DNA of 62,604 nucleotides, taken from IMG/VR virus record IMGVR_UViG_3300027898_000008, positions 1 through 62,604 of that record; one strand, written 5' to 3'. Of the stretch, positions 1 through 61,925 are shown one piece after another. Made by a program: the position numbers and the translations under genes. Every line of letters begins with the position of its first letter. Position 1 is the first letter of the stretch. The DNA is from a virus. The notes under the pieces are model-generated. The model had not been told where the DNA came from. It searched no databases and worked only from the letters and a program-made list of their open reading frames with translations.

Positions 1-11
1 AAGCCCACTGG

Positions 12-86: not shown

Positions 87-99
87 TCGTTACTACTCG

Positions 100-231: not shown

Positions 232-276
232 GCTTCTCCCCGGCAGGCTGTTCGGGCCTTGACGCGGGGGAGAAGC
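232..276. repeat. 10-bp inverted repeat between tRNA genes
   Basis: Bases 232-241 (GCTTCTCCCC) are the exact inverse of 267-276, with a 25-base loop. It lies in the 106-base spacer between tRNA-Met and tRNA-His. It could form an RNA hairpin separating tRNAs during processing, or be the relic of a decayed tRNA. No U-run follows on either strand, so it is not a convincing terminator. Apart from this hairpin I see nothing in 176-281. Confidence 0.5.
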
Positions 277-281
277 ACTAG

Positions 282-355
282 GGTGAAAGACGAGGTTCGA
301 ACTCGCTTCTTCCGGGGTCACATCCCGGCGTTCATCCACATGAACTTCTATCACC
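282..355 (-). tRNA. tRNA-His (GTG)
   Basis: The anticodon stem CCGGG/CCCGG carries loop ATGTGAC (anticodon GTG), with D stem GTTC/GAAC and T loop TTCGAAC. An extra 5' G opposes C73, as expected for tRNA-His. The acceptor has one T:T mismatch and position 8 is A instead of U, so the tRNA is slightly degenerate. No CCA is encoded. The 110 bases upstream (356-465) show no tRNA or gene that I can support. Confidence 0.85.
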
Positions 356-465
356 ATGTATCGTCTCTCCGATTGTCACCGATTATTCCTGGTTCGGTTT
401 CCAGATTATTGGAACGGTCCCACATCTACATCGTACTACAGGGCAAACCGCCTGTCAAGTCTTTT

Positions 466-675
466 TCAGGTCCCGGTAAAGAACGCCGCAACGAAGCCCC
501 ACATAAATGCTGTGTGATACCCCATCCAAGCGTGCCCAAGGGCACCCATGATGATCATAATCCAGAAGCCCCAGAAAAGGGCGCCTAGAGTCAGACCAAT
601 AACCGCGAAGAATAGCAAAATGAAAATAGCTACAATCCCGCCACCAACCAACCCAGCTACTTTGGCAAAAAACAT
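466..675 (-). CDS. small two-helix membrane protein
   Basis: This encodes 69 residues, mostly hydrophobic, with about two transmembrane stretches (roughly residues 5-35 and 38-66, the second broken by Gly-His-Ala-Trp). The start at 675 is chosen because AGGAGG lies four bases upstream; an ATG further upstream lacks such a site. A promoter at 704-732 precedes it, so the gene probably heads a short transcript that ends in tRNA-His, tRNA-Met and tRNA-Ile. I do not recognise the family. Membrane-acting roles such as superinfection immunity or a holin accessory are possible but unsupported. Confidence 0.75.
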   Translation of the reverse strand: MFFAKVAGLVGGGIVAIFILLFFAVIGLTLGALFWGFWIMIIMGALGHAWMGYHTAFMWGFVAAFFTGT

Positions 676-703
676 AAAGCCTCCTATCCGTTCAGATAGA
701 AAC

Positions 704-732
704 AACATACCACATTTTAAGCAGCACGTCAA
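704..732 (-). promoter_or_regulatory. sigma70-like promoter for 466-675 and three tRNAs
   Basis: On the minus strand TTGACG (727-732) is followed after 17 bases by TATGTT (704-709). Predicted transcription start is about 697, leaving a leader of roughly 20 bases with a Shine-Dalgarno site. The stretch 733-881 upstream holds short hairpins (for example GAGGT/ACCTC near 775) but no gene that I can support. Confidence 0.65.
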
Positions 733-881
733 GTACGTCTTCGCAGGGAAGACAGAAATCGAATCCACCTTGGAGGTTTTGGAGACCTCTTGTTCACCTT
801 GAACACTTCCCTATATAGGCCGTCTCTCCGGCATGTCACGTTTTTCGGGTCGATCAACTCCCCCGGTCCAACGTCCGGTAG

Positions 882-962
882 TCGAAGAGGAGGGATTTGA
901 ACCCCCACGCCCGAAGGCCACTGGGTTACAGCCAGCTAGGCCACCTACTGCCCAACTCTTCG
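882..962 (-). tRNA. tRNA-Tyr (GTA), class II
   Basis: The acceptor CGAAGAG pairs perfectly with CTCTTCG. The anticodon stem GCTGG/CCAGT carries loop CTGTAAC (anticodon GTA). A long variable arm (GCC-TTC-GGGC) follows, as bacterial tRNA-Tyr has, and then T loop TTCAAAT. The discriminator is A and no CCA is encoded. Confidence 0.92.
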
Positions 963-973
963 TTGTTACTACG

Positions 974-1046
974 CTCCAGTTAATGGGTTCGAACCATTCT
1001 ATCACGGTTAACAGCCGCGCACATTCGCCAAGATTGTTAAACTGGA
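974..1046 (-). tRNA. tRNA-Asn (GTT)
   Basis: The acceptor TCCAGTT pairs with AACTGGA, the anticodon stem CGCGG/CCGTG carries loop CTGTTAA (anticodon GTT), and the T loop is TTCGAAC. The D stem is short (ACA/TGT). Discriminator G fits Asn. No CCA is encoded; the trailer is CGTAGTAAC. Confidence 0.88.
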
Positions 1047-1103
1047 ATGACCTTTCCGCACGCACGGGCATGATACGGAATTTCCGTAGTGCGTTTTACT
1101 TCG

Positions 1104-1177
1104 TCCTCCCGTTGGGGTACGATCCCAAAGCCCTGAGCTTAAAAGGCTCCCGCTCTATCCGTTTGAGCTACAAGAGG
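1104..1177 (-). tRNA. tRNA-Lys (TTT)
   Basis: The acceptor CCTCTTG pairs with CGGGAGG (two G:U), D stem GCTC/GAGC, anticodon stem GGAGC/GCTCA with loop CTTTTAA (anticodon TTT). The T loop is ATCGTAC, an A for the usual first T, as also seen in the tRNA-Gly(GCC) of this array. Trailer CGAAGTAA; no CCA. Confidence 0.9.
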
Positions 1178-1181
1178 TTGG

Positions 1182-1252
1182 TTCTCCTACGCGGTGCTGC
1201 CCCGCGCTCCTGACCTTAAGAGGGTCGCACATCACTGCAATGCTTTAGGAGA
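1182..1252 (-). tRNA. tRNA-Lys (CTT), degenerate T loop
   Basis: The acceptor TCTCCTA pairs perfectly with TAGGAGA, and GACC/GGTC closes an anticodon loop CTCTTAA (anticodon CTT). The T-arm position holds a perfect 5-bp stem CGCGG/CCGCG, but its loop is GGCAGCA and lacks the conserved TTC and A. The bases after discriminator A read CCA. The overall architecture supports a tRNA; the non-canonical T loop makes function uncertain. Confidence 0.65.
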
Positions 1253-1276
1253 ATGACTTTACTTCTTACTTCGTGG

Positions 1277-1347
1277 TCGGGTGTGCGAGAATCGAACGCG
1301 CGCCCAAAGGTTCCAAACCTAAGATTCTGCCACTATAATAACACCCG
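1277..1347 (-). tRNA. tRNA-Pro (TGG)
   Basis: The acceptor CGGGTGT pairs with ACACCCG, T loop TTCGATT, anticodon loop TTTGGAA (anticodon TGG). The anticodon stem is weak: three good pairs AGG/CCT followed by two T:T mismatches. The bases after discriminator A read CCA and then CGAAGTAA, so the trailer motif shared by other genes here sits three bases later. Confidence 0.75.
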
Positions 1348-1353
1348 ATGGTA

Positions 1354-1444
1354 CTACATACTTCGAACATGGGGGTGCTCTACCAACTGAGCTACACAAG
1401 ACCGAAGCCAAGTAACGGGACTCGAACCCGCGACCTCCCCCTCG
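1354..1444 (-). pseudogene. two tRNA halves in swapped order (decayed or permuted tRNA)
   Basis: On the minus strand a 3' tRNA half comes first (anticodon-stem GGGGG, variable AGGTC, T arm GCGGG/CCCGT with loop TTCGAGT, then TACTTGGC). It is followed after a few bases by a 5' half (TCTTGTG, TA, D stem GCTC/GAGC, then A and CCCCC). The CCCCC of the 5' half could pair with the GGGGG of the 3' half, which is the order of a circularly permuted tRNA gene. The acceptor strands pair poorly, with two central T:T mismatches. The simpler reading is two deletion remnants. Confidence 0.5.
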
Positions 1445-1518
1445 CGCCAGTAGCGGGTTTCGATCCCAGCTGCCTTTCGATTGACAATCGAATGCTCTCC
1501 CAAGTGAGCTATACCGGC
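1445..1518 (-). tRNA. tRNA-Asp (GTC)
   Basis: The acceptor GCCGGTA pairs with TACTGGC, D stem GCTC/GAGC, anticodon stem TTCGA/TCGAA with loop TTGTCAA (anticodon GTC). The T arm has a GGG/CCC core with loop ATCGAAA and a mismatched outer pair. Discriminator G fits Asp. No CCA. Confidence 0.9.
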
Positions 1519-1526
1519 TTGTTTTA

Positions 1527-1677
1527 CTACAACTTCAAGTGTTTCCTTATGGAGTTGTCGCTTACTCCAAGAATTCTTCCTACTTCCATAAAACTATTTG
1601 TCTCTAACAACTTTAGTATCTCCGAATCTTCTGGCCATTCTATTTTTGTCTTACGTCCTTTTTTATCTTTGGAAAAG
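1527..1677 (-). pseudogene. C-terminal remnant of HNH homing endonuclease
   Basis: Downstream of tRNA-Ser the minus strand encodes about 50 residues. They contain IEWPEDSEILKLLE followed by the helix-turn-helix LGVSDNSIRKHLK and a stop. This is the typical C-terminal DNA-binding module of phage HNH homing endonucleases. The HNH catalytic part is missing and the reading frame opens only inside the tRNA-Ser gene, with no plausible ribosome site. I read it as what is left of a mobile endonuclease gene once inserted between tRNA genes. Confidence 0.7.
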
Positions 1678-1761
1678 CGGAAAGAAGAGGTGTCGATCCC
1701 CCGAGTGTTACCTCGTGTCCTAGTTTTCAAGACTAGTTACCTGGCCGCAGGTATACTTTCC
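1678..1761 (-). tRNA. tRNA-Ser (TGA), class II
   Basis: The anticodon stem CTAGT/ACTAG carries loop CTTGAAA (anticodon TGA), with D stem ACCT/AGGT and a long variable arm closed by CGAG/CTCG. The T loop is ATCGACA. The acceptor GGAAAG pairs with CTTTCC, with a mismatch at 7:66. Discriminator G fits Ser. No CCA. Confidence 0.88.
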
Positions 1762-1816
1762 ATTGTTGAAGCGTCCGGGGCTGACTCCCGACAAGATCTG
1801 CATGATTTCCGCATCG

Positions 1817-1888
1817 CACTGTTAGAGAGAATTGAACTCTCCTTACTTGGTTGAGAACCAAGCGTCTTCACCAATAGACGATAACAGC
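1817..1888 (-). tRNA. tRNA-Glu (CTC)
   Basis: The acceptor GCTGTTA pairs with TAACAGT, D stem GTCT/AGAC, anticodon stem CTTGG/CCAAG with loop TTCTCAA (anticodon CTC), T arm GAGAG/CTCTC with loop TTCAATT. Discriminator G, no CCA. The 55 bases after it (1762-1816) hold a T-arm-like hairpin (TCGGG/CCCGG with a 7-base loop), possibly another tRNA relic. Confidence 0.9.
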
Positions 1889-1896
1889 AAGTAAAA

Positions 1897-1975
1897 GTGC
1901 AGACTGATTAGGCCGTAAGTCTCAGCACCTGTCCTGTGTTAATCACTCCACAGGCGATACAGTATCGACATGCAC
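1897..1975 (-). ncRNA. cloverleaf-like RNA of unknown identity
   Basis: This 79-base stretch of the tRNA array folds on the minus strand into four helices. A terminal stem GTGCA/TGCAC encloses hairpins GATA/TATC, CCTGTG/CACAGG (10-base loop) and GACT/AGTC (12-base loop). Arm order and length resemble a tRNA, but no 7-base anticodon loop or T loop can be found. It may be a strongly diverged tRNA or a tRNA-like RNA. Confidence 0.4.
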
Positions 1976-1979
1976 TTCG

Positions 1980-2051
1980 CAGCCCCAGCAGGATTTGAAC
2001 CTGCTCCTTCGACTTGAAAGGCCGAAGTACTAACCCATATACTATGGGGCC
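1980..2051 (-). tRNA. tRNA-Glu (TTC)
   Basis: The acceptor GGCCCCA pairs with TGGGGCT, anticodon stem TCGGC/GTCGA with loop CTTTCAA (anticodon TTC) extended by two more pairs, T arm GCAGG/CCTGC with loop TTCAAAT. Discriminator G, trailer CGAAGTGC, no CCA. Confidence 0.9.
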
Positions 2052-2056
2052 ATGTT

Positions 2057-2128
2057 AGATGTTGGGTTGCCAATCCTATTGCTTCTTCCCCGCGTGGCTA
2101 GCGCAGTATCCCTCGAGGGGAAACAACT
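2057..2128 (-). ncRNA. possible degenerate tRNA
   Basis: This gap between two tRNA genes has exactly tRNA length (72). Its ends pair (AGTTGTT with AACATCT, six of seven), and a central stem CTGCG/CGCGG carries a 7-base loop CTAGCCA. The D region is only a 3-bp hairpin and no T arm can be drawn. A decayed tRNA is the likely explanation; confidence is low. Confidence 0.25.
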
Positions 2129-2137
2129 TACACCTAG

Positions 2138-2209
2138 AGTCTCAGGCGGGGTACGATCCCGCGACCTCCTACTTGGCAAGCAGGCGTTCTTCCGCTGAAC
2201 TACTAAGAC
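2138..2209 (-). tRNA. tRNA-Gly (GCC)
   Basis: The acceptor GTCTTAG pairs with CTGAGAC, D stem GTTC/GAAC, anticodon stem CCTGC/GTAGG with loop TTGCCAA (anticodon GCC), T arm GCGGG/CCCGC with loop ATCGTAC. Discriminator T, no CCA. Confidence 0.92.
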
Positions 2210-2220
2210 ATATTACTTCG

Positions 2221-2293
2221 ACCGTCAGACCCGATTTGAACGGGCGCTACCTACTTGGAAGGAAGGTGTGCTTGCCGCTGACACTACTAACGG
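2221..2293 (-). tRNA. tRNA-Gly (TCC)
   Basis: The acceptor CCGTTAG pairs with CTGACGG, anticodon stem CCTTC/GTAGG (one T:T) with loop CTTCCAA (anticodon TCC), T loop TTCAAAT. Discriminator T, trailer CGAAGTAA, no CCA. Confidence 0.9.
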
Positions 2294-2305
2294 ATTGTTA
2301 CTGCG

Positions 2306-2377
2306 TGCCATTTGAGAGAATCGAACTCCCGGCTTCTAAGTTACCAACTTAGCGTTCCACCACTGAACTAAAAAGGC
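2306..2377 (-). tRNA. tRNA-Thr (GGT)
   Basis: Anticodon stem CTAAG/CTTAG with loop TTGGTAA (anticodon GGT), D stem GTTC/GAAC, T arm GGGAG/CTCTC. The acceptor GCCTTTT pairs with AAATGGC except one T:T. Discriminator A, trailer CGCAGTAA, no CCA. Confidence 0.9.
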
Positions 2378-2388
2378 ATGTCACTGCG

Positions 2389-2459
2389 TTCCCCCGGACG
2401 GATTCGAACCGCCGCCTCTGAATTACGAATCCAGAGTTCTCCCGCTAAACTACAAGGGA
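2389..2459 (-). tRNA. tRNA-Thr (CGT)
   Basis: The acceptor TCCCTTG pairs with CGGGGGA, anticodon loop TTCGTAA (anticodon CGT) on stem CTGGA/TTCAG, T loop TTCGAAT. Discriminator A, trailer CGCAGTGA, no CCA. Confidence 0.9.
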
Positions 2460-2464
2460 CTGCG

Positions 2465-2537
2465 TGCCGCTAACAGGATTCGAACCCATGACCTGACGAT
2501 TACAAATCGCCTGCTCTACCACCTGAGCTACAACGGC
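2465..2537 (-). tRNA. tRNA-Thr (TGT)
   Basis: The acceptor GCCGTTG pairs with TAGCGGC, D stem GCTC/GAGC, anticodon stem GGCGA/TCGTC with loop TTTGTAA (anticodon TGT), T loop TTCGAAT. It is the first tRNA after the array promoter; transcription should start only a few bases before its 5' end. Trailer CGCAGT, no CCA. Confidence 0.92.
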
Positions 2538-2545
2538 ATATTTAC

Positions 2546-2574
2546 ACTATACTACAACATCTCGAGCTTGTCAA
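2546..2574 (-). promoter_or_regulatory. strong promoter of the main tRNA array
   Basis: TTGACA (2569-2574) and TATAGT (2546-2551) on the minus strand are separated by exactly 17 bases, the best sigma70-like match in the window. The predicted start is about 2540, just ahead of tRNA-Thr(TGT). It would transcribe the tightly packed array running down to about position 880. Confidence 0.8.
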
Positions 2575-2587
2575 GCAGAAATACAAA

Positions 2588-2641
2588 AAGCCAGTGGCAC
2601 TCTTCCAGTCCCCTCCCGAACTGAAAAACCACCACTGGCTT
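2588..2641 (-). terminator. Rho-independent terminator after tRNA-Met(2674-2745)
   Basis: A 10-bp perfect inverted repeat (AAGCCAGTGG with CCACTGGCTT) is followed on the minus strand by a T-run. It ends the transcript carrying gene 2755-3078 and the adjacent tRNA, and isolates it from the array promoter at 2546-2574. Confidence 0.7.
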
Positions 2642-2673
2642 AAAGATTTGCTTCCTATTGGGAAGACTTTTAG

Positions 2674-2745
2674 TGGCGGATACGAGATTTGCACTCGTGA
2701 CCTAAAGCTTATGAAGCTCCCGCGCTACTACTGCGCCAATCCGCT
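2674..2745 (-). tRNA. tRNA with CAT anticodon, A:C at 1:72
   Basis: Cloverleaf with D stem GCGC/GCGC, anticodon stem GGAGC/GCTTT, loop TTCATAA (anticodon CAT), T arm ACGAG/CTCGT with loop TGCAAAT. Six acceptor pairs form, but position 1:72 is A:C. Such a mismatch recalls initiator tRNA, yet the GGG/CCC anticodon stem is missing. It lies nine bases after the stop of 2755-3078 and is probably co-transcribed with it. Confidence 0.88.
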
Positions 2746-16926: not shown

Positions 16927-17361
16927 ATGGCTACAGACACAAACTTTAGTACCTATGGTGGCGAGCAGCAGTGGCTTGCGTCACTCAACGTTAACGGCGT
17001 TGACTACGGCAACTTCGACAAGTTCAGCGGTGGCGATGCAGTTGCGTCGGTATCTAAGTTCCGTCCTGCTGGTATGGGTCCTGAGCGTACTTACTTGGCT
17101 TTGCCGGTATTCGCTAACATCACACTCACCAAGGCGTTTGTCCAGACCGACTACGCCATCCAGAACACACTTCGTAACTTGGTAGGGGCAGCACAGGCAA
17201 CTGTGAAGATCACTCCCTTGAATGACGCTGGAAAGCCTTGGGGTACACCGCGTACTTACACCGGGCGCATCGAAGCCGTCAAGGACGGTAACACCGACTC
17301 AACATCAAATGCTGTCCGTACTTGGATGGTTGACGTTGTTGTGGAGACTGTTGCCAACTAA
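16927..17361 (+). CDS. tail tube protein
   Basis: This encodes 144 residues with AAGGAG seven bases before the ATG. A compact beta-rich protein directly after the sheath gene; size and order match myovirus inner tube proteins, which stack as hexamers around the tape measure. Mostly C-ending codons suggest high expression. Confidence 0.85.
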   Translation: MATDTNFSTYGGEQQWLASLNVNGVDYGNFDKFSGGDAVASVSKFRPAGMGPERTYLALPVFANITLTKAFVQTDYAIQNTLRNLVGAAQATVKITPLNDAGKPWGTPRTYTGRIEAVKDGNTDSTSNAVRTWMVDVVVETVAN

Positions 17362-17388
17362 TCGCAGTAACAAAACCATTGGAGGAAT

Positions 17389-17967
17389 ATGGTAGATTTC
17401 AAAATTGAAGGTGACATTGACACGTCTGAAGACGAAAACACTTGGGCAGCTGTAGCCCCCAATGTGGAAACGCTATCAGCTCCATCAGAGCAGACTGTCT
17501 CAACACCCCTTCGTTCACTAAAGGATCGTCGTACGCAGATCGTTACTGACCTGTACACCGACTTGCGCGTTCCCCGTTGGGAGAACCCTCAGATCTTTGT
17601 TCGCTTCAACCCCATCAACACGACGAAGATGAATGCTAGCCTCAAGCAGCGTTCTAACTCCAAGGTTGCTGACTGGCCGTTGCGTGCAAACACTGACGTG
17701 CTTGTTGATTCGTGCATCGGCATCTACGCTGTCTACGAAGACGACCCTGAAGTGAAGCTTTCACTCCGCGATGGTGACTCACACGGCTCATGGACCAAGT
17801 TTGACCCAGACCTTTGCGATGCCCTTGGCATCAATCCCGGTGACAAGGATCAGACCGTTCAGGCAGTCAAGGGTCTCTACTTCACCGATGGCGACATTGT
17901 TGATGCAGCAGAGCGTTTGCTCCGTTTCTCAAACATCTCGAACGACGAGGCTGACGGGCTTTTTTAG
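17389..17967 (+). CDS. tail assembly chaperone (short form, G-like)
   Basis: This encodes 192 residues with GGAGG before ATG 17389. It lies between tube and tape measure, where the G chaperone is found. It ends at TAG 17965-17967, right after the run CTTTTTT. Tail chaperones bind the tape measure during assembly and are absent from mature virions. Confidence 0.85.
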   Translation: MVDFKIEGDIDTSEDENTWAAVAPNVETLSAPSEQTVSTPLRSLKDRRTQIVTDLYTDLRVPRWENPQIFVRFNPINTTKMNASLKQRSNSKVADWPLRANTDVLVDSCIGIYAVYEDDPEVKLSLRDGDSHGSWTKFDPDLCDALGINPGDKDQTVQAVKGLYFTDGDIVDAAERLLRFSNISNDEADGLF

Positions 17968-18191
17968 AAGGCCTGAAGGATGATCCATACATTGAGCAAG
18001 CGGCGTACGCTTTAACTCAAGGCATGGACCCCATCGAGTTCTTGAGCCAGCAGCGTGACGATCATCTAATCCGTCTGGCCATCCTTCAGAAGGCCATCGA
18101 CATCGACGGAAAGAAAACCATTGATGAAATCGATCTTCTGTCCAAGAAGGTTGGTTTTGAAACCGCACGCATCTTGTCCAAGATGTTCTAA
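17389..18191 (+). CDS. tail assembly chaperone (frameshifted GT-like long form)
   Basis: Slipping back one base in CTTTTTT (17959-17965) avoids the TAG and opens the -1 frame for 75 more codons, to TAA 18189-18191. The extension begins LEGLKDDPYIEQAAY, ends ARILSKMF and is highly charged and helical. The extension has no start codon or ribosome site of its own, so it can only be made by frameshifting. This is the conserved G/GT strategy. The slip is at a Phe codon next to the stop. Confidence 0.8.
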
Positions 18192-18218
18192 CCACTCCGT
18201 CTCACAATCTCAGGCGGC

Positions 18219-18256
18219 AAAGAGACCGCTGCTCCTTCTGGGGTGGCGGTCTTTTT
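18219..18256 (+). terminator. Rho-independent terminator before tape measure
   Basis: AGACCGC (18223-18229) pairs with GCGGTCT (18246-18252), extended by outer A:T and G:U pairs and followed by TTTTTG. It sits between the frameshifted chaperone stop and the tape-measure ATG. It probably reduces tape-measure transcription relative to sheath and tube, which are needed in far greater number. Confidence 0.7.
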
Positions 18257-18269
18257 GTTTAAGGAAAAC

Positions 18270-21200
18270 ATGACTGAAGAAATCATTGGCATTGGCGTAA
18301 ATGTAAACGGTGGTACCACCGCAGCCGGTGAGATCGGCAAAGTTGGTGACGCCCTTGGAGCAATGGGTGATAAGGCCATTGTTGCTGCTGATGGTCTTGA
18401 TAAAGTAGCAGCCGCCAACGACCGAGTTAGTGCCAGCATGAAGGTTGGCGGTCGTAACATCATTGTTATGCGAGACGCCGAAGACACGCTCAATGCAGTT
18501 ATGGGCAAGACAACCAGTGTCATGGATTCAGCTGCTGCCGCTACTGATCGATACTCTGCTGCAGCAGATACCGCCGCAGTTTCTGCAGAACGTCTGATGG
18601 CTTCGCAAGAGGCTATGGCTGCTAAGCAGGCTGAGATCGCTATCAACACTCAGGTGGCTAACGACGCTCTTGGTAAGACCTACGTTGGTATGAGCAAGCT
18701 CGAGCAGCTCGGCACGCCAGCAATCATGAAAGCTGCTACTTGGAGTATCCTTGGTGTCGGCGGTGTCGCCTATGAGGGCATCAAGCAGTACATGAACTTC
18801 AACAAACTGATCACGCAGACTATCACACAGGCCGGTGTGTCTCCATCCAACATGGGTGCATTGACTACAATGGCCGAAACGATTTCTAAGATGACGGGTG
18901 TCAATCTTAACGACGTGGCTAACAACATTTACCGTGTTGCGTCGGGTACAGCTTCTTGGAATGCTGGTCTCGGATCAACAATGAAGCAATTGCAAGACAT
19001 CACAACTTCTGTTACTAAGCTCCAGGTATTGGGTAACGTTCCGGCTGGTGCCGCATCAGAACAAGCGGCTCGAGTTATTACAGCTCTTGTCAACTCAAAC
19101 ATTGTTGGCGTTGGAAACAGTTCAGATAAAGCTGCTGCTTTGATTAACGCTGCCGTTGGTTCTGGTGACATGCGCCTTGCGGACCTTGTGCCGGGTATTG
19201 GTCGCGGTGTTCTTCAGTCAGCTAAAGCTAACGGTGTAAGCGCCAAGGACATGCTTGCATGGATCGCTTTGCAGACTTCTATGGGTACTACAGCTAGCGT
19301 TGCCGGTAACTACGTTAAGACCGGTATCAACCTTCTCGCCAACCCGTCTGCACAGGGTGTTCTTGCTGAGTCCATGATTGGTATCAAGCCTGGTGAGATG
19401 CAAGGCATCATCGCTGGTCCTGGTGGGCTGCAAGCCGCTGTATCTGTTTTCAACGAAGCCGTCAAAAAGCTTACAATTTCATCTAACTTTGTTGGTTACC
19501 GAACAAGCACTGGTAACGCGCGCGCTGGTGGAACTGGTGAAGCCGCAGCCCTTAACAAGCTTCAGACATGGATGGTTGGCGAGATGCCTGCTGTTGTTCT
19601 GAAGCAGTGGGAGCACGGTGGAAGCGCCGCTTCTGGTGGATTGACCCCAGCCAACCTCCAGTGGATCACTGACTTGATTATGACCAAAGCTTTCGGTGGA
19701 TCAAAGCAATTCGCTACCATGGCCGCTATCTTGAAGAACCCTCAATTGCTTGCGGGTATCGAAACGTCTATCGGGAACAAGAGCAGTGTCGCGTCGATGA
19801 ACGCTGCATATGCTATTGCGTCTAACACTCCATCACAGAGATTCCACAAAGACCTAGCAGCAATTCAGGTTGACCTTGTTAACGCTGGAAAAGCTTTGTA
19901 CCCGGCGACCATAAAACTGGTCGATGGATTTACATGGCTATTCAGTCACATCACTTCTTGGAAGCCAGCTCTTCTTGAAATAGGCGCTGCCATGACCGCT
20001 GTCGTAGCAGTTGCTGCTGCAGTGAAGATCTCTCAGCTCGGTACTGGCGCAATGGCGATGTATGGTGGGCTTTTGACAAAAATGAATCCCAGCGGCACGT
20101 CTGGTGGATATTTCCGTGCAGCGTATCAAGCTAAGACTGCTGGTACGATTGCTGACCTAGGTGCAGCGATTCGTGCCACGGGTGCAGAAGAGACCATCGC
20201 AATCAAAGACGGAGATGCTGGGATTACTGGTGCGGTTCGGGAAGGCGCAACTGAGACTGTAGATGCACTTCGTGGAGTGCAAGCAACTCTTGCTGAAGGA
20301 CTTGGTGTAAGAAACGTTGGTAGTCTTACTGGTGCAGCTAGCAAAATCCAATCAACTGGAATTATGGGTAATGGCGAAAACATTGCAGGATTTAATAAAG
20401 GGCTTGCAGACCTTAACAAAAATGGTGCTGGCATTTTGCCAATGCCTGTCCAAGCAGGTGAGTACGGGCCACGGTCTCCCGCCCAAAGACTCTGGATGGA
20501 AAACAAAGCTACAGCTGCAATGATGGCTAGTGCGCCCGGCAGCGCTGCGTTCCAAGCTGAAATGGCAGCACGCAATTCGGGGGTTTTGGGAGCACGAGAT
20601 CTTCAAAACACTTTTGTTCCTCCTTTCGTGATTCCAGAAGCAGCTGCAACAGAAGCAACTACGATAGCCAAAACTGGGAGCAGCGTTCTCTCTGGAATTA
20701 AAGGCCTCGGCGTAGGCGCTCTTGGCCTTGTTGGTGGACCTATCGGACTAGCAATGATCGCTTCAACCGTTCTGCCGCTTGCTGTACCTTTCATGATGAA
20801 GGGTATCAGCGCTATGAGCCACTGGTTCGGCGGGGCACAAAATGCAAACTCCATAGCCCTTAGTTCCATATCTCACCCTCTCGTTCAAACTGCTTCACAA
20901 TATACTTCAACTATTGATTCTTACAAAAAGCAAATTGCTCAATTAAATAATCAAGGGTACAACCCATTAACTGCAACTGCAGCTGAGACAGCGCAATGGC
21001 AGAATTTGCATATGAAACTTAACACCGCTCAAGGTGGCCTTGCTGGACTGAACCCAGCACAGCAAATGGCTCAAATCAAAAATGCATGGGCTATCTCTAA
21101 CAACGCAGGGATTGCTAACCTTCTTTCCGACACAGCCGCTGGCGGTCAATACAACTTTGGCAAGTCATTCAACATGTCTCTTAATTCTATGCCTGCATAC

Positions 21201-42397: not shown

Positions 42398-42656
42398 GGA
42401 GAAGTACGATGAGTCACGCAAAAACACTACGCCACAAAATGTGGCTTCGGTTGCACGTATGCGTAAAGAAACTGGAGACACTCGAGAATGGGTGCAGTGT
42501 TTGATCTGTGGTGACTTGTGTCCACAAGACGCTTACGGGGTTCATGACGCACACATAACTTGCACTTACTCAAAGAAGGGCAAGCGCATCATGAAACTTC
42601 AGAGAGCCGAGGAGAAGAAAGAACTACTGGCCGATGTTAGACCCGGACTCTTCTAG
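42390..42656 (+). CDS. zinc-finger-like protein
   Basis: This encodes 88 residues from GTG 42390, the start overlapping the previous stop. The motif CLICGDLC...HITC (about 41-62) could bind zinc. The C-terminus is Lys/Glu-rich. The gene runs 33 bases into the convergent WhiB gene, tail to tail, with no terminator in between. Confidence 0.6.
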   Translation: MAEEKYDESRKNTTPQNVASVARMRKETGDTREWVQCLICGDLCPQDAYGVHDAHITCTYSKKGKRIMKLQRAEEKKELLADVRPGLF

Positions 42657-42989
42657 GGCCTCAGACTCCATTAATTTCTCCCACGCCTCTTCTCCTGTAA
42701 GCCCATCAATGATCCACTCTCTGCGTTGGTCAGGGGTGCTCCCTCCCCACACACCGTGTTCATCGCTAATCGACATAGCGTGTAAGAAGCATGTCTTTTG
42801 TACCGGGCAACGGCGGCAGACTGCTAAACCTTTTTTGATAAAAGGAGCCTGCCCTTGTCCGGGGAAGAACCATTCACCGGGGCTTTCTTCTTCAATGCAT
42901 GTCGCGTCGTTGTAAAAGCTGGGGCGCGCGCGCTTAAAGATCTCAATAAACTGCGCGAGCTCCCAATCTTCAAAGGTAAAGTTACTCAC
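42624..42989 (-). CDS. WhiB-family Fe-S regulator
   Basis: This encodes 121 residues from GTG 42989, preferred because AGGTG lies eight bases upstream. Four cysteines in WhiB order: ATC, then CRRCPVQKTC, followed by GVWGG (the beta-turn motif) and a basic/acidic tail. WhiB proteins bind a [4Fe-4S] cluster and the sigma factor region 4. A phage copy may redirect host transcription or block host WhiB, as known for mycobacteriophage TM4 WhiB. Last gene of a leftward operon. Confidence 0.9.
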   Translation of the reverse strand: MSNFTFEDWELAQFIEIFKRARPSFYNDATCIEEESPGEWFFPGQGQAPFIKKGLAVCRRCPVQKTCFLHAMSISDEHGVWGGSTPDQRREWIIDGLTGEEAWEKLMESEALEESGSNIGQ

Positions 42990-43140
42990 GGTTACGCACC
43001 TGATTTGCATGTACTGCTGCTACTATACGAGCTTCTTCCGGCGTGTCAACCTTGATGTTCCAAGGGCACGTCATGCATGTTAAAGTCCATTTCCCGTTAA
43101 CGGGGTAAATGATTACGTAAGGGCGAGCTAATAATGTCAT
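42982..43140 (-). CDS. 52-residue CxxC protein
   Basis: ATG 43140 overlaps the stop of the HNH gene (ATGA) and the gene ends eight bases inside the WhiB start, so all three are coupled. The product starts with a beta segment, carries CMTC (22-25), and ends in a helix. It may be a small zinc or Fe-S partner. No homologue recognised. Confidence 0.7.
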   Translation of the reverse strand: MTLLARPYVIIYPVNGKWTLTCMTCPWNIKVDTPEEARIVAAVHANQVRNRE

Positions 43141-53243: not shown

Positions 53244-53442
53244 AAATACACGTAAACCAAAGATTAATGGTGTGCCTGTAGTAAACGCTCGCTTTGAATG
53301 CGGCTGGCATGATCCCGTGTTGCGCGGGCCACTCAGACGTGGTAAGGTAGAAGTGGCACACGAACAAGCACGTAAGGACTGGGAAAGCCATAACCTTGCT
53401 GTGCACAATAACCGATTAGGAGAATTGGAAGACCTTGATTAA
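53236..53442 (+). CDS. small basic hypothetical protein
   Basis: This encodes 68 residues from ATG 53236, within the end of the ferredoxin gene. Basic N-terminus (MGKNTRKPKING), FECGWHDPV in the middle and a helical C-terminus. Stop overlaps the next TTG start. Not recognised. Confidence 0.65.
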   Translation: MGKNTRKPKINGVPVVNARFECGWHDPVLRGPLRRGKVEVAHEQARKDWESHNLAVHNNRLGELEDLD

Positions 53443-54670
53443 TCTTTATGACCAATCAGCAGAAGAGTCTGTCCTGGGAGCAATGCTTCTCCGCAGGGAA
53501 GCCGTCATGGAAGCCATTGATATTGTAGAAGCATCAGATTTTTACAATCCAAGTCACGCTTCGATCTTTCAAGCTATGGAAGATTTGTTTGCTGAAGGCA
53601 CTGTTATTGACTACACTACCGTTGCATCCAAGGTCGGCGGGGAAGACATTATCAGCAGGCTATCTAATATGCAGATGAATACCCCGAGCGCTGGTACTAA
53701 CGCCGTAACTGCGTATGCACGTATTGTTTATGACAAAGCAATCGCTCGAAAGATCTTTCGTCAGATTGAAGAAGCTCGAGAGGGTATCATTAATGGAGAC
53801 GACCCATACCAGTTGTCAGATGACCTTGAGCACGCTCTTACTACCATGGGTTCAGCTCATGCCAATGAGATCGAGTCAGTGACATTGGACGAACTCCAAG
53901 CCACCGTGACAGACCTAGAGGATGACGTAATCATTCCCGGTATGTTGAACCGTGAGTGGAGAACTATCATTGTTGCGCCTGAAGGCATGGGCAAGTCAAC
54001 CATCCTGCGTGCCATTTCCATCACTTCGTCTCAAGGCCTTCACCCATTTTCTCACCGCGACATCAAGCCAATCCGTGTTCTCATTGTGGACCTCGAGAAC
54101 CCTAAGGAGGCAATTCTCGAGACGGGTATGGAGCTGATGAAATACGTGAAGATGTGGTCTAAGGATTATGATCCCTCGCGCTTGCGTATTTTCCGACGAC
54201 CTGCTGGGATCGATCTGCGTAGGGCTAAAGATCGCGCGGACTTGCGACGAGAGATAGGTTTCCACAAGCCTGACCTAGTGTGCATTGGCCCCGTTATTAA
54301 GATGTATCAGAAGAAGGGTGGGGAGTCCTACGAAGATTCAGCTGATGCAGCGATGGCTGAGTTAGACCAGTTGCGTACTCGATACGGCTTTGCACTTCTT
54401 CTTGAACACCACGCGGCCAAGGGGAGCAAGGGAGAGCGTGACATGACGCCGTTTGGCTCTCAGCGATGGATGAGTTGGCCTGATGCAGGTAAGGGTCTTT
54501 ATCCCAACAAGGATGACCCTACCCGTATGCGCGTTGACACTTTCCGTGGTGACCGTCTTCGGGGAATTGCTTGGCCTGATGAGATCATTCGTGATAAGCA
54601 GTGGCTTATTACAGGACGATGGACTAATGGGATACCTGAAGGTATCGGACAGCCGGGGAGACAAAAATGA
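53435..54670 (+). CDS. DnaB/RepA-like replicative helicase
   Basis: This encodes 411 residues from TTG 53435. The N-terminal domain (DQSAEESVLGAMLLRREAVMEAIDIVEASDFYNPSHASIFQAM) is that of DnaB. The C-terminal RecA-like ATPase has APEGMGKST (about 178-186), VLIVDLENP (about 212-220) and LLEHHAAKG. The mix of DnaB N-domain and RepA-type ATPase is typical of actinophage helicases. It unwinds DNA at the fork; the initiator upstream is its likely loader. Confidence 0.85.
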   Translation: MINLYDQSAEESVLGAMLLRREAVMEAIDIVEASDFYNPSHASIFQAMEDLFAEGTVIDYTTVASKVGGEDIISRLSNMQMNTPSAGTNAVTAYARIVYDKAIARKIFRQIEEAREGIINGDDPYQLSDDLEHALTTMGSAHANEIESVTLDELQATVTDLEDDVIIPGMLNREWRTIIVAPEGMGKSTILRAISITSSQGLHPFSHRDIKPIRVLIVDLENPKEAILETGMELMKYVKMWSKDYDPSRLRIFRRPAGIDLRRAKDRADLRREIGFHKPDLVCIGPVIKMYQKKGGESYEDSADAAMAELDQLRTRYGFALLLEHHAAKGSKGERDMTPFGSQRWMSWPDAGKGLYPNKDDPTRMRVDTFRGDRLRGIAWPDEIIRDKQWLITGRWTNGIPEGIGQPGRQK

Positions 54671-55233
54671 CAGTAGTCGTAGCAGCTGTAACGAAAAGAG
54701 ACGGAGTTGTCATGGCATGTGACTCAGAGATTTCTTACGGTTGGAACAAAGACAATGACGGTTGGAACAAAATATGGGTTGACGACCGCAATAACTTTTT
54801 GATCGGCGGGTGCGGGAGCATCAGGGCAATGCAGATATTTAAATACTGGGTCCAGCTTCCTCAAAACAATGGTGATGATCCAGAGAAGTTTGGCGTTGAA
54901 CAAGTAACTCCAATTGTTAGACACGAACTTGGAGAGCACGGAGCCCTTTATCAAAACAAGAAATCAGAGTATTTTGAAGGTGGATTCATGGTTTCTTGGG
55001 GTAATGAATTAATGTCAGTTGATTCAGATTTTGGAATTTTTGTACCTTCTAGCGGAAGACACGCTATAGGATCGGGTCAAGCAGAAGCCTTAGGACACCT
55101 TGGCAACACTGGCCCGTGGTCCAAGGCAGACGTTATTGAAGCAGCGCGCAAAGCCACACTCACCGCCGTTGGTGTAGGTGGCCCTTTGTGGGTTGGAACT
55201 ACTAAGTCAATGGAGATAGTGCAAGTTGTTTAA
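54667..55233 (+). CDS. proteasome/HslV-like Ntn hydrolase
   Basis: This encodes 188 residues. After removal of Met1 the N-terminal Thr leads TVVVAAVTKRDGVVMACDSE, matching HslV and proteasome beta subunits. Thr1, Asp18 and Lys34 fall where the catalytic Thr1-Asp17-Lys33 lie. FLIGGCGSIRAMQ and HAIGSGQAEALGHL are the other conserved blocks. No ATPase (HslU/ARC) is encoded nearby. It may degrade proteins with a host unfoldase, or be a specialised Ntn hydrolase. Start overlaps the helicase stop. Confidence 0.82.
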   Translation: MTVVVAAVTKRDGVVMACDSEISYGWNKDNDGWNKIWVDDRNNFLIGGCGSIRAMQIFKYWVQLPQNNGDDPEKFGVEQVTPIVRHELGEHGALYQNKKSEYFEGGFMVSWGNELMSVDSDFGIFVPSSGRHAIGSGQAEALGHLGNTGPWSKADVIEAARKATLTAVGVGGPLWVGTTKSMEIVQVV

Positions 55234-55492
55234 AGATCTATTTGAAGGATACCGAGATGGGGCGTGCCAAAAGAGTGGAGTCAACTTCATTACCGAGGCG
55301 GTCAAACCAGATCAAGAGAAGGTTTGCAATCGTTGTCCAGTATTCAATGAGTGCTTTGAATATGCATTGCATAACGAGATATGGGACGTCTGGGCTTCAA
55401 TGGGGCCAATCAAACGCAAAAAGCTTAGGAAAAAACTTGGCATACCAGAACCTGGAATATTGCCTATGAAAAAAGAACGGAAAGCATCATGA
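55226..55492 (+). CDS. second WhiB-like Fe-S protein
   Basis: This encodes 88 residues from TTG 55226. Cys14, then CNRCPVFNEC (34-43) give the four-Cys WhiB pattern. The GVWGG turn is replaced by DVWASMG, so sigma-factor contact may differ. A basic tail (KRKKLRKKLG) could bind DNA. Overlaps both neighbours. It differs strongly from the WhiB at 42624-42989, so is not a recent duplicate. Confidence 0.82.
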   Translation: MFKDLFEGYRDGACQKSGVNFITEAVKPDQEKVCNRCPVFNECFEYALHNEIWDVWASMGPIKRKKLRKKLGIPEPGILPMKKERKAS

Positions 55493-57322: not shown

Positions 57323-58105
57323 ATGAACATTATACCTCCACTTCCCAAAAACACCATTATGCTTGTTGAGGTAGGCTCCACCGCCCACGGCACTGGAATT
57401 GCCGGAGGGGAAGACCACGATGAAATGGGAATCGTTGTTGAGACGGCTCGAGAAGTTCTTGGACTGACTATTGGTTTTAAGACTGTTATGCAACGAACGC
57501 AGCCAGAGGGTTTACGTTCTGGTCCTGGTGATACGGATCGCACATTGTATTCGCTACGCACGTTTCTTCATCTAACCTCACAGGGGAATCCTTCGATGTT
57601 GATGTCTCTTTGGGCGCCAATAATTGAGTGTGATAAGGCTGGGTCGCAACTTAGAGAAATGTCGTCTGCATTTATCGGTTCTCACATTATACCCCGATAC
57701 CAAGGATACATGAATTCTCAAGCAATGCGTTTGTTGGGTTTAAAGGGAAGCAGCGGTCACGGCAAGCGCGGCGGCGGGCGAAGGGAAGAGCTGATTGCTG
57801 AGCATGGGTACGACACTAAATACGCTATGCACGCCGCACGTTTGGGCTACCAGTGTATTGAGTTGCTTGAAACTAACAAACTTTCTTTGCCCATCGAAGG
57901 AGAATCTGGTCAATGGCTGAGGGATGTGCGCTACGGAAAAGTTTCGTTTGACGAATGGTGGGAACGTGTGCTATGGTTAGACCATGTTCTTGAAAACCTC
58001 AAATCCAGCGGCGATTTCCGACCGGGGCCTGACAAAAAAGCCATCGAAGACTTTTCTATTCGAACGCACAAAGCCCATTGGCCCAACAGTAGCCTCTTTG
58101 AATGA
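57323..58105 (+). CDS. RlaP-type nucleotidyltransferase
   Basis: This encodes 260 residues. VGSTAHGTGIAGGEDHDEMGI (about 17-37 in part) has the pol-beta Gly-Ser and the Asp-x-Asp pair of the PF10127/RlaP family of RNA-repair nucleotidyltransferases. Later motifs (HGKRGGGRREELI, KYAMHAARLGYQ) agree. Members accompany RNA ligases in repair cassettes. It probably adds nucleotides to damaged RNA ends. It opens an operon with the CCA enzyme; leaderless start. Confidence 0.82.
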   Translation: MNIIPPLPKNTIMLVEVGSTAHGTGIAGGEDHDEMGIVVETAREVLGLTIGFKTVMQRTQPEGLRSGPGDTDRTLYSLRTFLHLTSQGNPSMLMSLWAPIIECDKAGSQLREMSSAFIGSHIIPRYQGYMNSQAMRLLGLKGSSGHGKRGGGRREELIAEHGYDTKYAMHAARLGYQCIELLETNKLSLPIEGESGQWLRDVRYGKVSFDEWWERVLWLDHVLENLKSSGDFRPGPDKKAIEDFSIRTHKAHWPNSSLFE

Positions 58106-58175
58106 GTGCTCCACCTGCAAAGGGTGGAGGCCAGAGCCATGGGCACCATGCCCCACATGCGGAGAGGAAAGCTGA
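58098..58175 (+). CDS. 25-residue zinc-ribbon microprotein
   Basis: From TTG 58098 a short frame encodes CSTC...CPTC with 10 residues between the pairs, the minimum for one zinc site. Its stop overlaps the start of the CCA enzyme (TGATG). No ribosome site; expression would rely on coupling with the gene before. It may be real or only a bridge for ribosomes. Confidence 0.45.
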   Translation: MNECSTCKGWRPEPWAPCPTCGEES

Positions 58176-59599
58176 TGGAAGACGAAACATACGAGATTGC
58201 TTGCAAGATTGCACGCCTAGTTAAGGCCAATGGTGGCCGTGCTCTTATTGTGGGCGGTTGGGTACGTGATTTTCTTTTAGGAGTTCCATCCAACGACATC
58301 GATCTAGAGGTTTTCGGTCTTACTGAATATCAGGTTCGCACAATCATTGCTCGAAATTATCAGTTCAACGAAGTTGGTCAAGCTTTCGGTGTTTTGAAAG
58401 TAAAAGTACCTAACTCCGATGAAGTCATTGATGTGTCGCTTCCAAGAAAGGAAGTTAAGACAGGTGACGGTCACCGTGGGTTCTCAGTGGAGATCGATCC
58501 CTACATGTCTTTCTTCGATGCTTCACGCCGCCGTGATTTGACAATCAATTCCATGGGTTACGACCCGTTGGAAGGTACAATCATAGACCCCCACGGTGGA
58601 AAAAACGATATCGAATATGGTTGGATCAAGCACACTTCCGACGCTTTTTACGAAGACCCTTTGCGTGTTTTGCGCGTAGCACGGTTTGCGGCCAAGTACG
58701 ACTTTTATGTGACGCTTGCAACTATGCAGGCGTGCCAAAACATGGAAAATATGGCTGACTATTTGCCTTCAGAGCGTTTGTGGATGGAGATGGAAAAAAC
58801 CATGCTTCAAACCAATTGGCCAAGTAGGTTTTTCAGAGAGTTGAATTACTACAAGTGGCTTCGTATTTTTCCTGAAGTTAAAGCGTTGATCGGCGTGGAA
58901 CAAGACTGTGAGTGGCACCCCGAAGGCGACGTGTTTGAACACACCATGCACGCAATCGACTATTGGGCGCAAAACTTGCGTACCGGGAATAGGGACGACG
59001 ATCTTGTTGTCGGTCTGGGCGTCTTGTGCCACGACTTTGGAAAGGTGTCTACTACTGGGCTGAGCGATGGGCGTATTCGAGCTTTGGGGCACGAAGAAGC
59101 CGGTGTGGAACCAACCAAGAACTTCTTGCATCGTTTGGGTCAATATGAGTTGGCAAAGAAGATTACGCCACTGGTGGCCAACCACCTTTACCCAAATCAC
59201 TCAAGCCCGTTCACCGCTAAGGGTATTCGACGCCTATCCACCAAGGTAGATCGTTTGGATCTACTGGCTACACTGTCGCGTGCTGATGTCGCTGGTCGTC
59301 CACCGAAAGACCCGGCGCCATCTTTTTACAAGATCTCTCAGTTCGAAGAAGTCGTTAGGACTACCGATGTTCCTGTCGGGGGACCAAAGCCGTTCATTGG
59401 CGGTGACGACCTCATCGAGATAGGCATGAAGCCGGGTCCCGAGTTCAAGACAATCCTTGATCGTATCTACGAGTCCCAACTTGACGGTGAGGTAGAAGAC
59501 ATAAATCAAGCCCACGAACTTCTCTCCAAGATCCTCGTAGAGCGATATGAAACAGCTCTTAAAGAGTCCAATTACTTTCCAATTGATCAGGTAAAATAA
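58175..59599 (+). CDS. cca: CCA-adding tRNA nucleotidyltransferase with HD domain
   Basis: This encodes 474 residues from ATG 58175 (GAGAGG upstream). GGWVRDFLLG (about 27-36) and DIDLEV (41-46) are the pol-beta motifs; RRRDLTINSMGYD and DPLRVLRVARFAAKY are class II CCA-enzyme motifs. An HD domain follows (HDFGK, about 290). It adds or repairs CCA at tRNA 3' ends. Most of the 18 tRNA genes at 1-2745 lack encoded CCA, so the enzyme directly serves them. Confidence 0.92.
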   Translation: MEDETYEIACKIARLVKANGGRALIVGGWVRDFLLGVPSNDIDLEVFGLTEYQVRTIIARNYQFNEVGQAFGVLKVKVPNSDEVIDVSLPRKEVKTGDGHRGFSVEIDPYMSFFDASRRRDLTINSMGYDPLEGTIIDPHGGKNDIEYGWIKHTSDAFYEDPLRVLRVARFAAKYDFYVTLATMQACQNMENMADYLPSERLWMEMEKTMLQTNWPSRFFRELNYYKWLRIFPEVKALIGVEQDCEWHPEGDVFEHTMHAIDYWAQNLRTGNRDDDLVVGLGVLCHDFGKVSTTGLSDGRIRALGHEEAGVEPTKNFLHRLGQYELAKKITPLVANHLYPNHSSPFTAKGIRRLSTKVDRLDLLATLSRADVAGRPPKDPAPSFYKISQFEEVVRTTDVPVGGPKPFIGGDDLIEIGMKPGPEFKTILDRIYESQLDGEVEDINQAHELLSKILVERYETALKESNYFPIDQVK

Positions 59600-59608
59600 A
59601 GAAACTCA

Positions 59609-59636
59609 TTGACATCTGCAGATAGTGTGCTAGAAT
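59609..59636 (+). promoter_or_regulatory. promoter of secreted lysozyme-like gene
   Basis: TTGACA (59609-59614), 16 bases, TAGAAT (59631-59636). The leader of about 65 bases contains a mini-ORF. Confidence 0.75.
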
Positions 59637-59661
59637 GAAGTTTAACCAATAAGGAGGCCGA

Positions 59662-59685
59662 GTGAAAACAACACCCGCAACGTAA
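59662..59685 (+). CDS. leader peptide (7 codons)
   Basis: AAGGAGG is placed seven bases before GTG 59662. The frame reads Met-Lys-Thr-Thr-Pro-Ala-Thr-stop. A ribosome site this strong in front of a 7-codon frame is unlikely to be idle. It may attenuate or stabilise the downstream mRNA. No terminator hairpin is evident between it and the next gene. Confidence 0.45.
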   Translation: MKTTPAT

Positions 59686-59708
59686 CATCCCCTGAACAAA
59701 GGAGCAAC

Positions 59709-60194
59709 GTGTTAAACAAGATCAAACTTATAGCCGCCTCACTAATTCTTGCATTATCGATCATTGTAGTACCCGCTTCACCCGTGCTAGCAACAAGCAA
59801 GCCTGCACGGCATCACCTTGTGGCTCATCACAAGCCTCATTCGATCACTCCAATTGCAGTTCCTGCTCAATGGCGAAACCCCGGTGGTACCTACCCCGGA
59901 CCAACGGACCCTACGCGGTTCTTGCCGCGCATTGACCAACTGGCTTTTGATTGTATTCGATACCACGAATCACGTGATCACCTTGTAGACGGCTACGGAT
60001 CTCAAGGATGGTACCAGTTTACTGTATCAACATGGTACGCCGCAGCGCAGGCTTTGCATCTTCCACCGACGCCAAATCAGGCAAATGGTAATCAGCAAAG
60101 TTCCGCCGCTGTTTGGTACTTTCACCGCAATGGACGTTTTGGCGTTCAATGGGCGGCAGATGCGTACAGCTGTCCCGGTATTTTCTACTTTTAA
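59709..60194 (+). CDS. secreted Rpf/lytic-transglycosylase-like protein
   Basis: This encodes 161 residues from GTG 59709 (AAAGGAG upstream). Signal peptide with basic start and hydrophobic core (about 6-28, cleavage after VLA). The mature domain has FDCIRYHESRDHLVDGYGSQGWYQFTVSTWYAAA, the lysozyme-like fold of transglycosylases and Rpf, with Glu in HES as likely catalyst. It would nick the cell wall from outside, perhaps assisting release, or excluding superinfection. Also possible as cell-wall remodeller. Confidence 0.82.
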   Translation: MLNKIKLIAASLILALSIIVVPASPVLATSKPARHHLVAHHKPHSITPIAVPAQWRNPGGTYPGPTDPTRFLPRIDQLAFDCIRYHESRDHLVDGYGSQGWYQFTVSTWYAAAQALHLPPTPNQANGNQQSSAAVWYFHRNGRFGVQWAADAYSCPGIFYF

Positions 60195-60202
60195 GGAGCT
60201 AT

Positions 60203-60445
60203 ATGGTAGACCTCAACATTTTAGATGTAATTGAAGATTTACGCAATGGAGTCCAAAAAGACATTGAGAATTTAATTTCCAAGATTTTACTTGCATCTAC
60301 TATAGATGATCGTGTAGACTTAGTGGGAGATGCTGTGGTAGATGGGACGACTGAAATGTGGTCTTCCGCTCTACACATGGCCACGACACTGGAGGCATAC
60401 GCAAATGAAGAGTCAGTTGAAGGTGGGGACGAAAGTCAAAGTTAA
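60203..60445 (+). CDS. helical hypothetical protein
   Basis: This encodes 80 residues with AAGGAG before ATG 60203. All-helical, with a DVIEDLRNGVQKDIENLISKIL segment suitable for dimerisation, acidic overall. Overlaps the next gene by about 40 bases. Not recognised. Confidence 0.65.
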   Translation: MVDLNILDVIEDLRNGVQKDIENLISKILLASTIDDRVDLVGDAVVDGTTEMWSSALHMATTLEAYANEESVEGGDESQS

Positions 60446-61064
60446 TTCGAATAATCCTTTTGGATATAGTGTTCCGACTGGATCTTTTGAGACCATTATT
60501 AGTGATTTTGATGAATCCGAATATAGAAAAGTTCTTTTAGACAATCCTGATCTTCGTTCCAATGATCTTAGTGGAAGTTGGACATTTCACAATGAAGAAA
60601 TCGATTTTGTTCCTTCTTTCAAAGTTGGCGACCGTGTAATTTGCACTTCAAACGAATTTGGTCCGGATAATTACTTCTTTGTAGGAAAAGTTGGTACAGT
60701 ACATTATGTGCGTAGTAACAGCATTTTTGTCAACTTCGATTTCGAAGTTAATTTTCTAGCAGAGTGCAACGCTTCAGAACTTGACTTCGCCCCCAAGAAG
60801 TACGAAGCAGTACCAATCGACACCTTCACCATCTACCGTACTGGTGACATCTCAGACACCCACACATCTGACCAGATGAATGACCCCGACGAGCCTCAGT
60901 GCTTCGGTGTGGTCTTTCCCTCGGGAAAGACAGTCATCAACTGGGCAACCGCTGTCGCATCGGTTTCAGTGTTTGACAACTACGATGAGTTCGAGCGCAT
61001 CCACGGCCACGTTGACCCTGAAAAGGATGCCGCTTACGGTACCAAGATCGTGTGGAACAAGTAA
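60405..61064 (+). CDS. hypothetical protein with SH3/KOW-like domains
   Basis: This encodes 219 residues from ATG 60405; GTG 60423 is an alternative. Two VGTKVKV/VGDRVIC-type beta segments (about 6-30 and 73-100) resemble small SH3-like barrels. The last 90 residues form an acidic beta-rich part whose codons end far more often in C, like the highly expressed virion genes, than those of the first half. The gene may be a fusion of two origins. Function unknown. Confidence 0.6.
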   Translation: MKSQLKVGTKVKVNSNNPFGYSVPTGSFETIISDFDESEYRKVLLDNPDLRSNDLSGSWTFHNEEIDFVPSFKVGDRVICTSNEFGPDNYFFVGKVGTVHYVRSNSIFVNFDFEVNFLAECNASELDFAPKKYEAVPIDTFTIYRTGDISDTHTSDQMNDPDEPQCFGVVFPSGKTVINWATAVASVSVFDNYDEFERIHGHVDPEKDAAYGTKIVWNK

Positions 61065-61234
61065 TGAAGCGCATTATTGAAACAATCATTTTGATGGTCT
61101 TTTTAATCATCAATTTTGTGTTTTTGGGAATAGCAATTTCTATCGGAAACTTTGGTGAGATAATTCTTTTTTCGATAGGCGTAGTTATGACAGTGACATG
61201 GATTGTTGAATACCATTTGCGAAAGGATCTATAA
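61064..61234 (+). CDS. two-helix membrane peptide
   Basis: This encodes 56 residues, TAATG overlap with the preceding gene. Two hydrophobic helices (about 4-26 and 29-48), with a basic C-terminus. Unknown role. Confidence 0.65.
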   Translation: MKRIIETIILMVFLIINFVFLGIAISIGNFGEIILFSIGVVMTVTWIVEYHLRKDL

Positions 61235-61235
61235 C

Positions 61236-61925
61236 ATGGGAAGTCACATTTACCACAAGATTAACTCTATCAGGAAGCGCGTGTTAGATGGACCTGACAA
61301 AGGCCACTTTACCGGAGAATGGTCTGACCCCAACTTCGAAGAGCTCCAAGACCTTCATTGGGTGTGCAGAGAAAAGATCGACGGCACCAACATCCGTGTG
61401 CACTTGTCTTCCCTCGAGCCCGGTGATCTGTCTATTGCATTTGACGGACGTACAGATAAAGCCAATATCCCCAAGCCTTTGCTGGCGCGTTTAAACGAGT
61501 TGTTTGACACCGTTCATTACCCACAAGTAGTGTTTGATACTTTTGATCAAGGCGCCCTCGAGACCGGCGTAACTATTTACGGCGAGGGGTACGGCGCAGG
61601 AATTCAAAAGGGAGGTAACTATGGCCCCGTGGACTTTATCGTCTTCGACATACGAATCGGTCACATGTGGCTTACGGAAGAATCCATCACAGGGATCTCC
61701 TCTGCCCTCGGACTGCGGCGAGTACCTATCTACGAAAACATTCAAACTCTACGAGATGCCATCACCATCGTCTCTCGCGGAACACTACTTTCTCACTGGC
61801 CAGCATATGGTGAGGCAGAAGGGATCGTTGCGGTACCGACCTCTGGAATTCTTGATCGTCGTGGCAACCGTATTATTGCCAAAGTAAAGGGAGTAGATTT
61901 TCCAGGGCGTCATGGAAAACAATGA
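61236..61925 (+). CDS. RNA ligase
   Basis: This encodes 229 residues from ATG 61236. Motif I is EKIDGTN with Lys47 as adenylation site; FDTFDQGA and VDFIVFDIRIG fit motifs III/IIIa, GEAEGIVA motif IV and IIAKVKG motif V. This is the RNA_ligase (PF09414) family, which seals 3'-OH/5'-P RNA breaks. With the RlaP-type enzyme and CCA enzyme it completes an RNA-repair set, likely aimed at cleaved tRNAs. Confidence 0.88.
   Translation: MGSHIYHKINSIRKRVLDGPDKGHFTGEWSDPNFEELQDLHWVCREKIDGTNIRVHLSSLEPGDLSIAFDGRTDKANIPKPLLARLNELFDTVHYPQVVFDTFDQGALETGVTIYGEGYGAGIQKGGNYGPVDFIVFDIRIGHMWLTEESITGISSALGLRRVPIYENIQTLRDAITIVSRGTLLSHWPAYGEAEGIVAVPTSGILDRRGNRIIAKVKGVDFPGRHGKQ

Follow-up and report, generated by a model that had tools for sequence, protein, structure and literature searches.

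The described systems closest to the protein considered here are the phage family PHROG 1040, the proteasome homologues termed AAH, and BPH, a double-ring particle that binds epoxomicin and for which no unfoldase is known (PMC5777263). AAH were defined by Fuchs, Alva and Lupas in 2021, who found no AAA+ partner occurring together with the new proteasome homologues and no actinobacterial phage with an AAH, and also described PPH, of ~140 residues and missing helix H2 (PMC8665760). Hundreds of phages already have annotated members of the family to which our protein belongs; examples from PHROG 1040 are Geobacillus virus E3 gp65, Salmonella phage S114 gp61 and Microbacterium phage Pumpernickel gp135. 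No biochemical description of any phage proteasome homologue was found in the open-access literature searched.

The gene studied here lies in the viral record IMGVR_UViG_3300027898_000008 of IMG/VR, whose entire analysed length of 62,604 nucleotides is referred to as the window. It occupies positions 54667-55233 of the plus strand as a 188-aa ORF from ATG to TAA, predicted to encode a proteasome/HslV-like Ntn hydrolase without a propeptide. No in-frame start was found upstream of the ATG at 54667, so that Thr is residue 2, and a Shine-Dalgarno-like GGGGAG at 54655-54660 on the same strand, with the ATG 6 nt downstream, is a plausible ribosome-binding site. The stop of the preceding plus-strand gene, a replicative helicase with a DnaB N-terminal domain and AAA_25 by Pfam (53435-54670), shares the bases ATGA (54667-54670) with the protease start, and the end of the protease gene overlaps by 8 bases the gene for a WhiB-like regulator (55226-55492, plus strand; Pfam Whib 5.1e-7), which begins with a TTG at 55226. 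Comparison with a 72%-identical homologue from another phage contig gave a pS of 0.88, at which synonymous sites are saturated, against a pN of 0.17; the protein is therefore maintained by selection, and the ORF is real and under strong purifying selection. An antisense reading of the gene was rejected on account of the many stops on the minus strand.

The window protein matched phrog_1040 ("peptidase HslV family") with an E value of 1.1e-13, and 20 of the 20 diverse phage members tested matched PHROG 1040. In single-sequence searches, the matches to Pfam Proteasome (E 0.085) and the NCBIfam archaeal beta model (0.013) were both below cut-off, and thus the protease identity is right but Pfam alone is insufficient to establish it. 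A single-sequence search of the PDB returned no matches; a 33-row profile built with relatives from viral contigs matched HslV best (7e-9), then BPH (1.2e-8), with 20S beta subunits ranking after these at 1.5e-4 and weaker. The AlphaFold monomer model (pLDDT 90.6, pTM 0.88) has the element order S1-S2-S3-S4-H1-H2-strands-H3-H4-strands, in which a beta-sheet core is flanked by the helix pairs H1-H4 as in proteasome-like Ntn hydrolases, and Foldseek matched it to BPH (TM 0.73), 20S beta and HslV, each with probability 1.00, as well as to many phage proteins, one of them from Gordonia phage Daredevil. These matches bear out the initial annotation, which had taken the gene for an Ntn-hydrolase subunit of proteasome/HslV type and had proposed structure prediction against HslV and proteasome beta as a check. 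As modelled, the protein is a proteasome-like N-terminal-nucleophile hydrolase, and it is a new member of an already annotated phage family, PHROG 1040, not a new kind of protein. It shares with that family its size, fold family, Met-Thr start, Thr/Asp/Lys residues, GxG block and single stand-alone gene; it differs from other members in a one-residue insertion between S1 and S2 and in belonging to its own clade of WhiB-bearing phages, outside which identity is only 23-32%. BPH (5OVS/5OVT) gave some of the best fold matches, and TM-scores were highest here; it has Thr1 in common with the window protein, but identity in the structural alignment is 18-20%. HslV shares the GSG block at low overall identity; whereas HslV proper pairs with the unfoldase HslU, no HslU-type (AAA_2) gene was found in the window contig, which is possibly incomplete.

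The predicted catalytic residues were followed through an alignment of 76 distinct phage homologues, a set dominated by one phage clade and collected with a motif pattern. Within it, the predicted nucleophile, mature Thr1 (Thr2, codon 54670-54672), is Thr in 75/76 and Ser in 1/76, and Asp19 (proteasome Asp17, codon 54721-54723) and Lys35 (proteasome Lys33, codon 54769-54771) are present in all 76, all on the plus strand, so that T2, D19 and K35 supply the proteasome-like residues and Thr/Ser1, Asp and Lys are kept together throughout. Because of the one-residue insertion, the mature numbering is T1/D18/K34 and not T1/D17/K33. Gly50 (codon 54814-54816, plus strand), assigned by alignment to Gly47 as the candidate oxyanion-hole glycine, is Gly in 69 of the 76. 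Both glycines of the GSG block (G135-S136-G137; 55069-55077, plus strand) occur in 76/76 around a middle S, T or C, an invariance that is partly an effect of the search, since the motif itself was used to find relatives. The mature N-terminal Thr and the Asp, Lys and GSG positions named in the initial annotation are thus all in place. On the other hand, the accessory 20S residues Asp166 and Ser169 are absent from the window protein and its relatives in alignments judged by eye, in which DDSATGGP of PrcB lines up with AVGVGGP of the window protein.

Among cellular proteins, the set nearest to the window clade in profile comparison was that of stand-alone homologues from rhizobia and Streptomyces (E 2e-10), ahead of a ~231-aa actinobacterial family (3e-4), BPH (8e-4) and actinobacterial PrcB (0.03). 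A tblastn search with one family member found 24 plasmid records with a homologue, mostly from rhizobia and also from Streptomyces, Paraburkholderia and Bacillus, and the plasmid homologues whose genes were read are stand-alone proteins of 180-196 aa. The distribution of AAH over rhizobia, Streptomyces, Bacillus and phages fits these nearest relatives, which are AAH-like in standing alone at ~185 aa without a propeptide; the window protein likewise lacks an N-terminal propeptide, with Thr at residue 2 and no upstream start. It would therefore be an AAH-like member, a label that we infer from the distribution of its relatives. Identity with PPH was rejected, the window protein having 188 aa and, in the AlphaFold model, a 19-residue second helix at 72-90. 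PrcB was likewise rejected as the closest relative on its profile E value; it has the general fold and the triad in common with the window protein, but possesses a propeptide and, in the loci read, adjoins alpha, Mpa and PafA-type genes. No cellular protein directly related to the window protein came out of two scans of a genome collection. Of the four loci read from the second scan, L108 and L109 encode true PrcB next to genes of Mpa/PafA/PrcA type, and L104 and L107 encode BPH-like proteins. Only 2 of the 397 actinobacterial genomes sampled had any match, the one readable match being a longer, different protein. The ~231-aa actinobacterial cellular family (L114-L127; N terminus MTVVLALRCxDGLVI..D) resembles the phage proteins in its N-terminal part but was dropped, since PrcB, and not the phage family, is its closer relative.

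The genomic setting supports the label of replication operon given in the initial annotation. The gene order is SNF2-type helicase, HTH/DnaD-like protein, ferredoxin, DnaB-N/AAA_25 helicase, protease and then WhiB, with genes for RecA, SSB, ERF, YqaJ, an RlaP-type nucleotidyltransferase and a CCA-adding-type enzyme also nearby. The homologue is likewise near replication genes in close relatives, and in several distant phages it is found near thymidylate synthase, DHFR, MazG or dCMP deaminase; a search for related phages via the neighbouring helicase genes found none. All seven contigs tested from the closest relatives have a WhiB gene, as does the window contig (8 contigs in total), in keeping with the actinobacterial phage assumed at the outset. 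Two distinct WhiB-like genes are present in the window, at 42624-43010 (minus strand) and 55226-55492 (plus strand), and in Actinomycetia phage DSL-LC01 (L088, 6001-6954) a WhiB gene is directly 3' of the same protease gene, as in the window. From its tail sheath, portal and terminase genes the window phage looks like a myovirus. Sixteen tRNA genes occupy one end of the window (9-2745), and an RNA-repair-like set of RlaP-type nucleotidyltransferase, CCA-adding-type enzyme and RNA ligase the other (57323-61925). Whereas the 2021 survey found no AAH in actinobacterial phages, the family occurs in Planktophila phages E7 and F5 (PMC10202952), Microbacterium phage Pumpernickel, Arthrobacter phages Pitbull and Hum25, Actinomycetia phage DSL-LC01 and eight WhiB-bearing contigs including the window.

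As the initial annotation had observed, the subunit has no ATPase beside it: no AAA_2-type unfoldase was found in the window contig, which may be incomplete, so that such a gene could lie outside it, and its sole weak AAA match is RecA. The search for an unfoldase in related phages, proposed in the initial annotation, did not lead to one: the AAA matches in relatives that were read individually, out of a larger set that included ~260-aa proteins, are a loader of the DnaC type (L001) and MoxR-like ATPases (L098, L101). The homologue was present in all 19 phage records examined, as a single copy in 18 and with a partial second copy in one. The view that a lone subunit without an ATPase is unusual is therefore wrong here, given these single-copy records and the partnerless homologues of Fuchs et al. 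(PMC8665760); members of this phage family generally have no partner ATPase, and because BPH forms a ring without a known unfoldase, this lack needs no special explanation. Aeromonas phage 2L372X (L093, 4001 to record end) has two adjacent family genes, gp211 and gp001, the second matching partly, and the pair might form a two-subunit particle. Escherichia phage Ecwhy_1 (L095, 1-4594) has three protease-annotated genes clustered near a Sir2-like gene, one of which matched the family profile.

Taken together, we consider it probable, though by no means assured, that the window gene encodes a predicted ATP-independent, self-compartmentalizing threonine peptidase of the AAH-like/PHROG 1040 kind, made with the replication genes. 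Removal of Met from a Met-Thr start by host methionine aminopeptidase is standard and would expose Thr1, which with Asp and Lys would form a proteasome-type active site, the fold and residues being computed and catalysis predicted from them. By analogy with BPH, the subunits most likely self-assemble into an HslV/BPH-like ring with the active sites inside, and the example of BPH together with the absent partner gene suggests that no dedicated unfoldase would be needed if substrates were unfolded or specifically docked. Co-translation with the replicative helicase and the WhiB regulator is probable, which would place the action of the enzyme during replication and host takeover, where it would most likely trim or remove particular host or phage proteins. 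Two points count against this reading, namely the absence of Asp166 and Ser169 and the possibility that the contig is partial, with an unfoldase gene elsewhere. The want of a partner gene in the contig would suit an ATP-dependent protease docked on Mpa/ARC, ClpX or ClpC1 as a host unfoldase and so redirecting host protein degradation, given that the HslV and 20S relatives work with AAA+ partners; however, PrcB is far more distant in profile than the stand-alone homologues, BPH manages without an unfoldase, and the family spans phages whose hosts have quite different unfoldases, so that we regard this as unlikely. Replacement of the host 20S beta ring through assembly with host alpha subunits, which the initial annotation had entertained, would draw on the fold shared with 20S beta subunits and on the presence of proteasomes in many actinobacteria, but the same distance from PrcB, the lack of a propeptide and the occurrence of close homologues in phages of E. 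coli and Salmonella, hosts without a 20S proteasome, make it extremely improbable. The loss of Asp166 and Ser169 would also fit a specialized, non-degrading enzyme, either a peptide ligase or a single-target processing enzyme such as connectase, an example of how proteasome homologues diversify (PMC8665760), yet the AlphaFold model lacks the two-helix insertion that marks connectase, between S3 and S4, and we think this quite unlikely.

A role in maturation of the head or virion has to be weighed against a further group of loci. The slot after the portal gene is the usual place for a head maturation protease, and in 71/71 Planktophila-type loci with upstream sequence (within L015-L086) the homologue is directly 3' of the portal gene, as at 4078-6417 in L034; the arrangement is the same on the minus strand of phage F5 (L128), at 17155-19491. 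The order in phage F5 is TerL, portal, Ntn protein, several small or unknown genes, a scaffold-like protein and the major head protein. The seven genomes of this clade that were tested, F5 and six related contigs, gave no protease of the S78 or ClpP type. Scaffold-bearing phages can manage without a head maturation protease, and portal adjacency is therefore a lead only. The window gene, on the other hand, sits in the replication region, and a separate head maturation protease is predicted for the window phage at 9385-11199, so that the Ntn gene is not needed for head maturation there; we consider it very doubtful that the window protein serves this purpose.

The preferred reading for the window protein thus remains an unfoldase-independent peptidase made with the replication genes. 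A broader scenario, which we offer as speculative and unlikely, is that actinophages took up a proteasome-like threonine protease for two settings, a replication/host-takeover operon in the window phage and its closest relatives and a portal-adjacent position in freshwater Planktophila-type phages, in which it could represent the first maturation protease of Ntn type for heads or virions. Some of the actinophages bearing the family have cultured hosts, and the function of unfoldase-less viral proteasome homologues is therefore testable; if active, these proteins would be compartment proteases that the phages make themselves, with a part in takeover or assembly.
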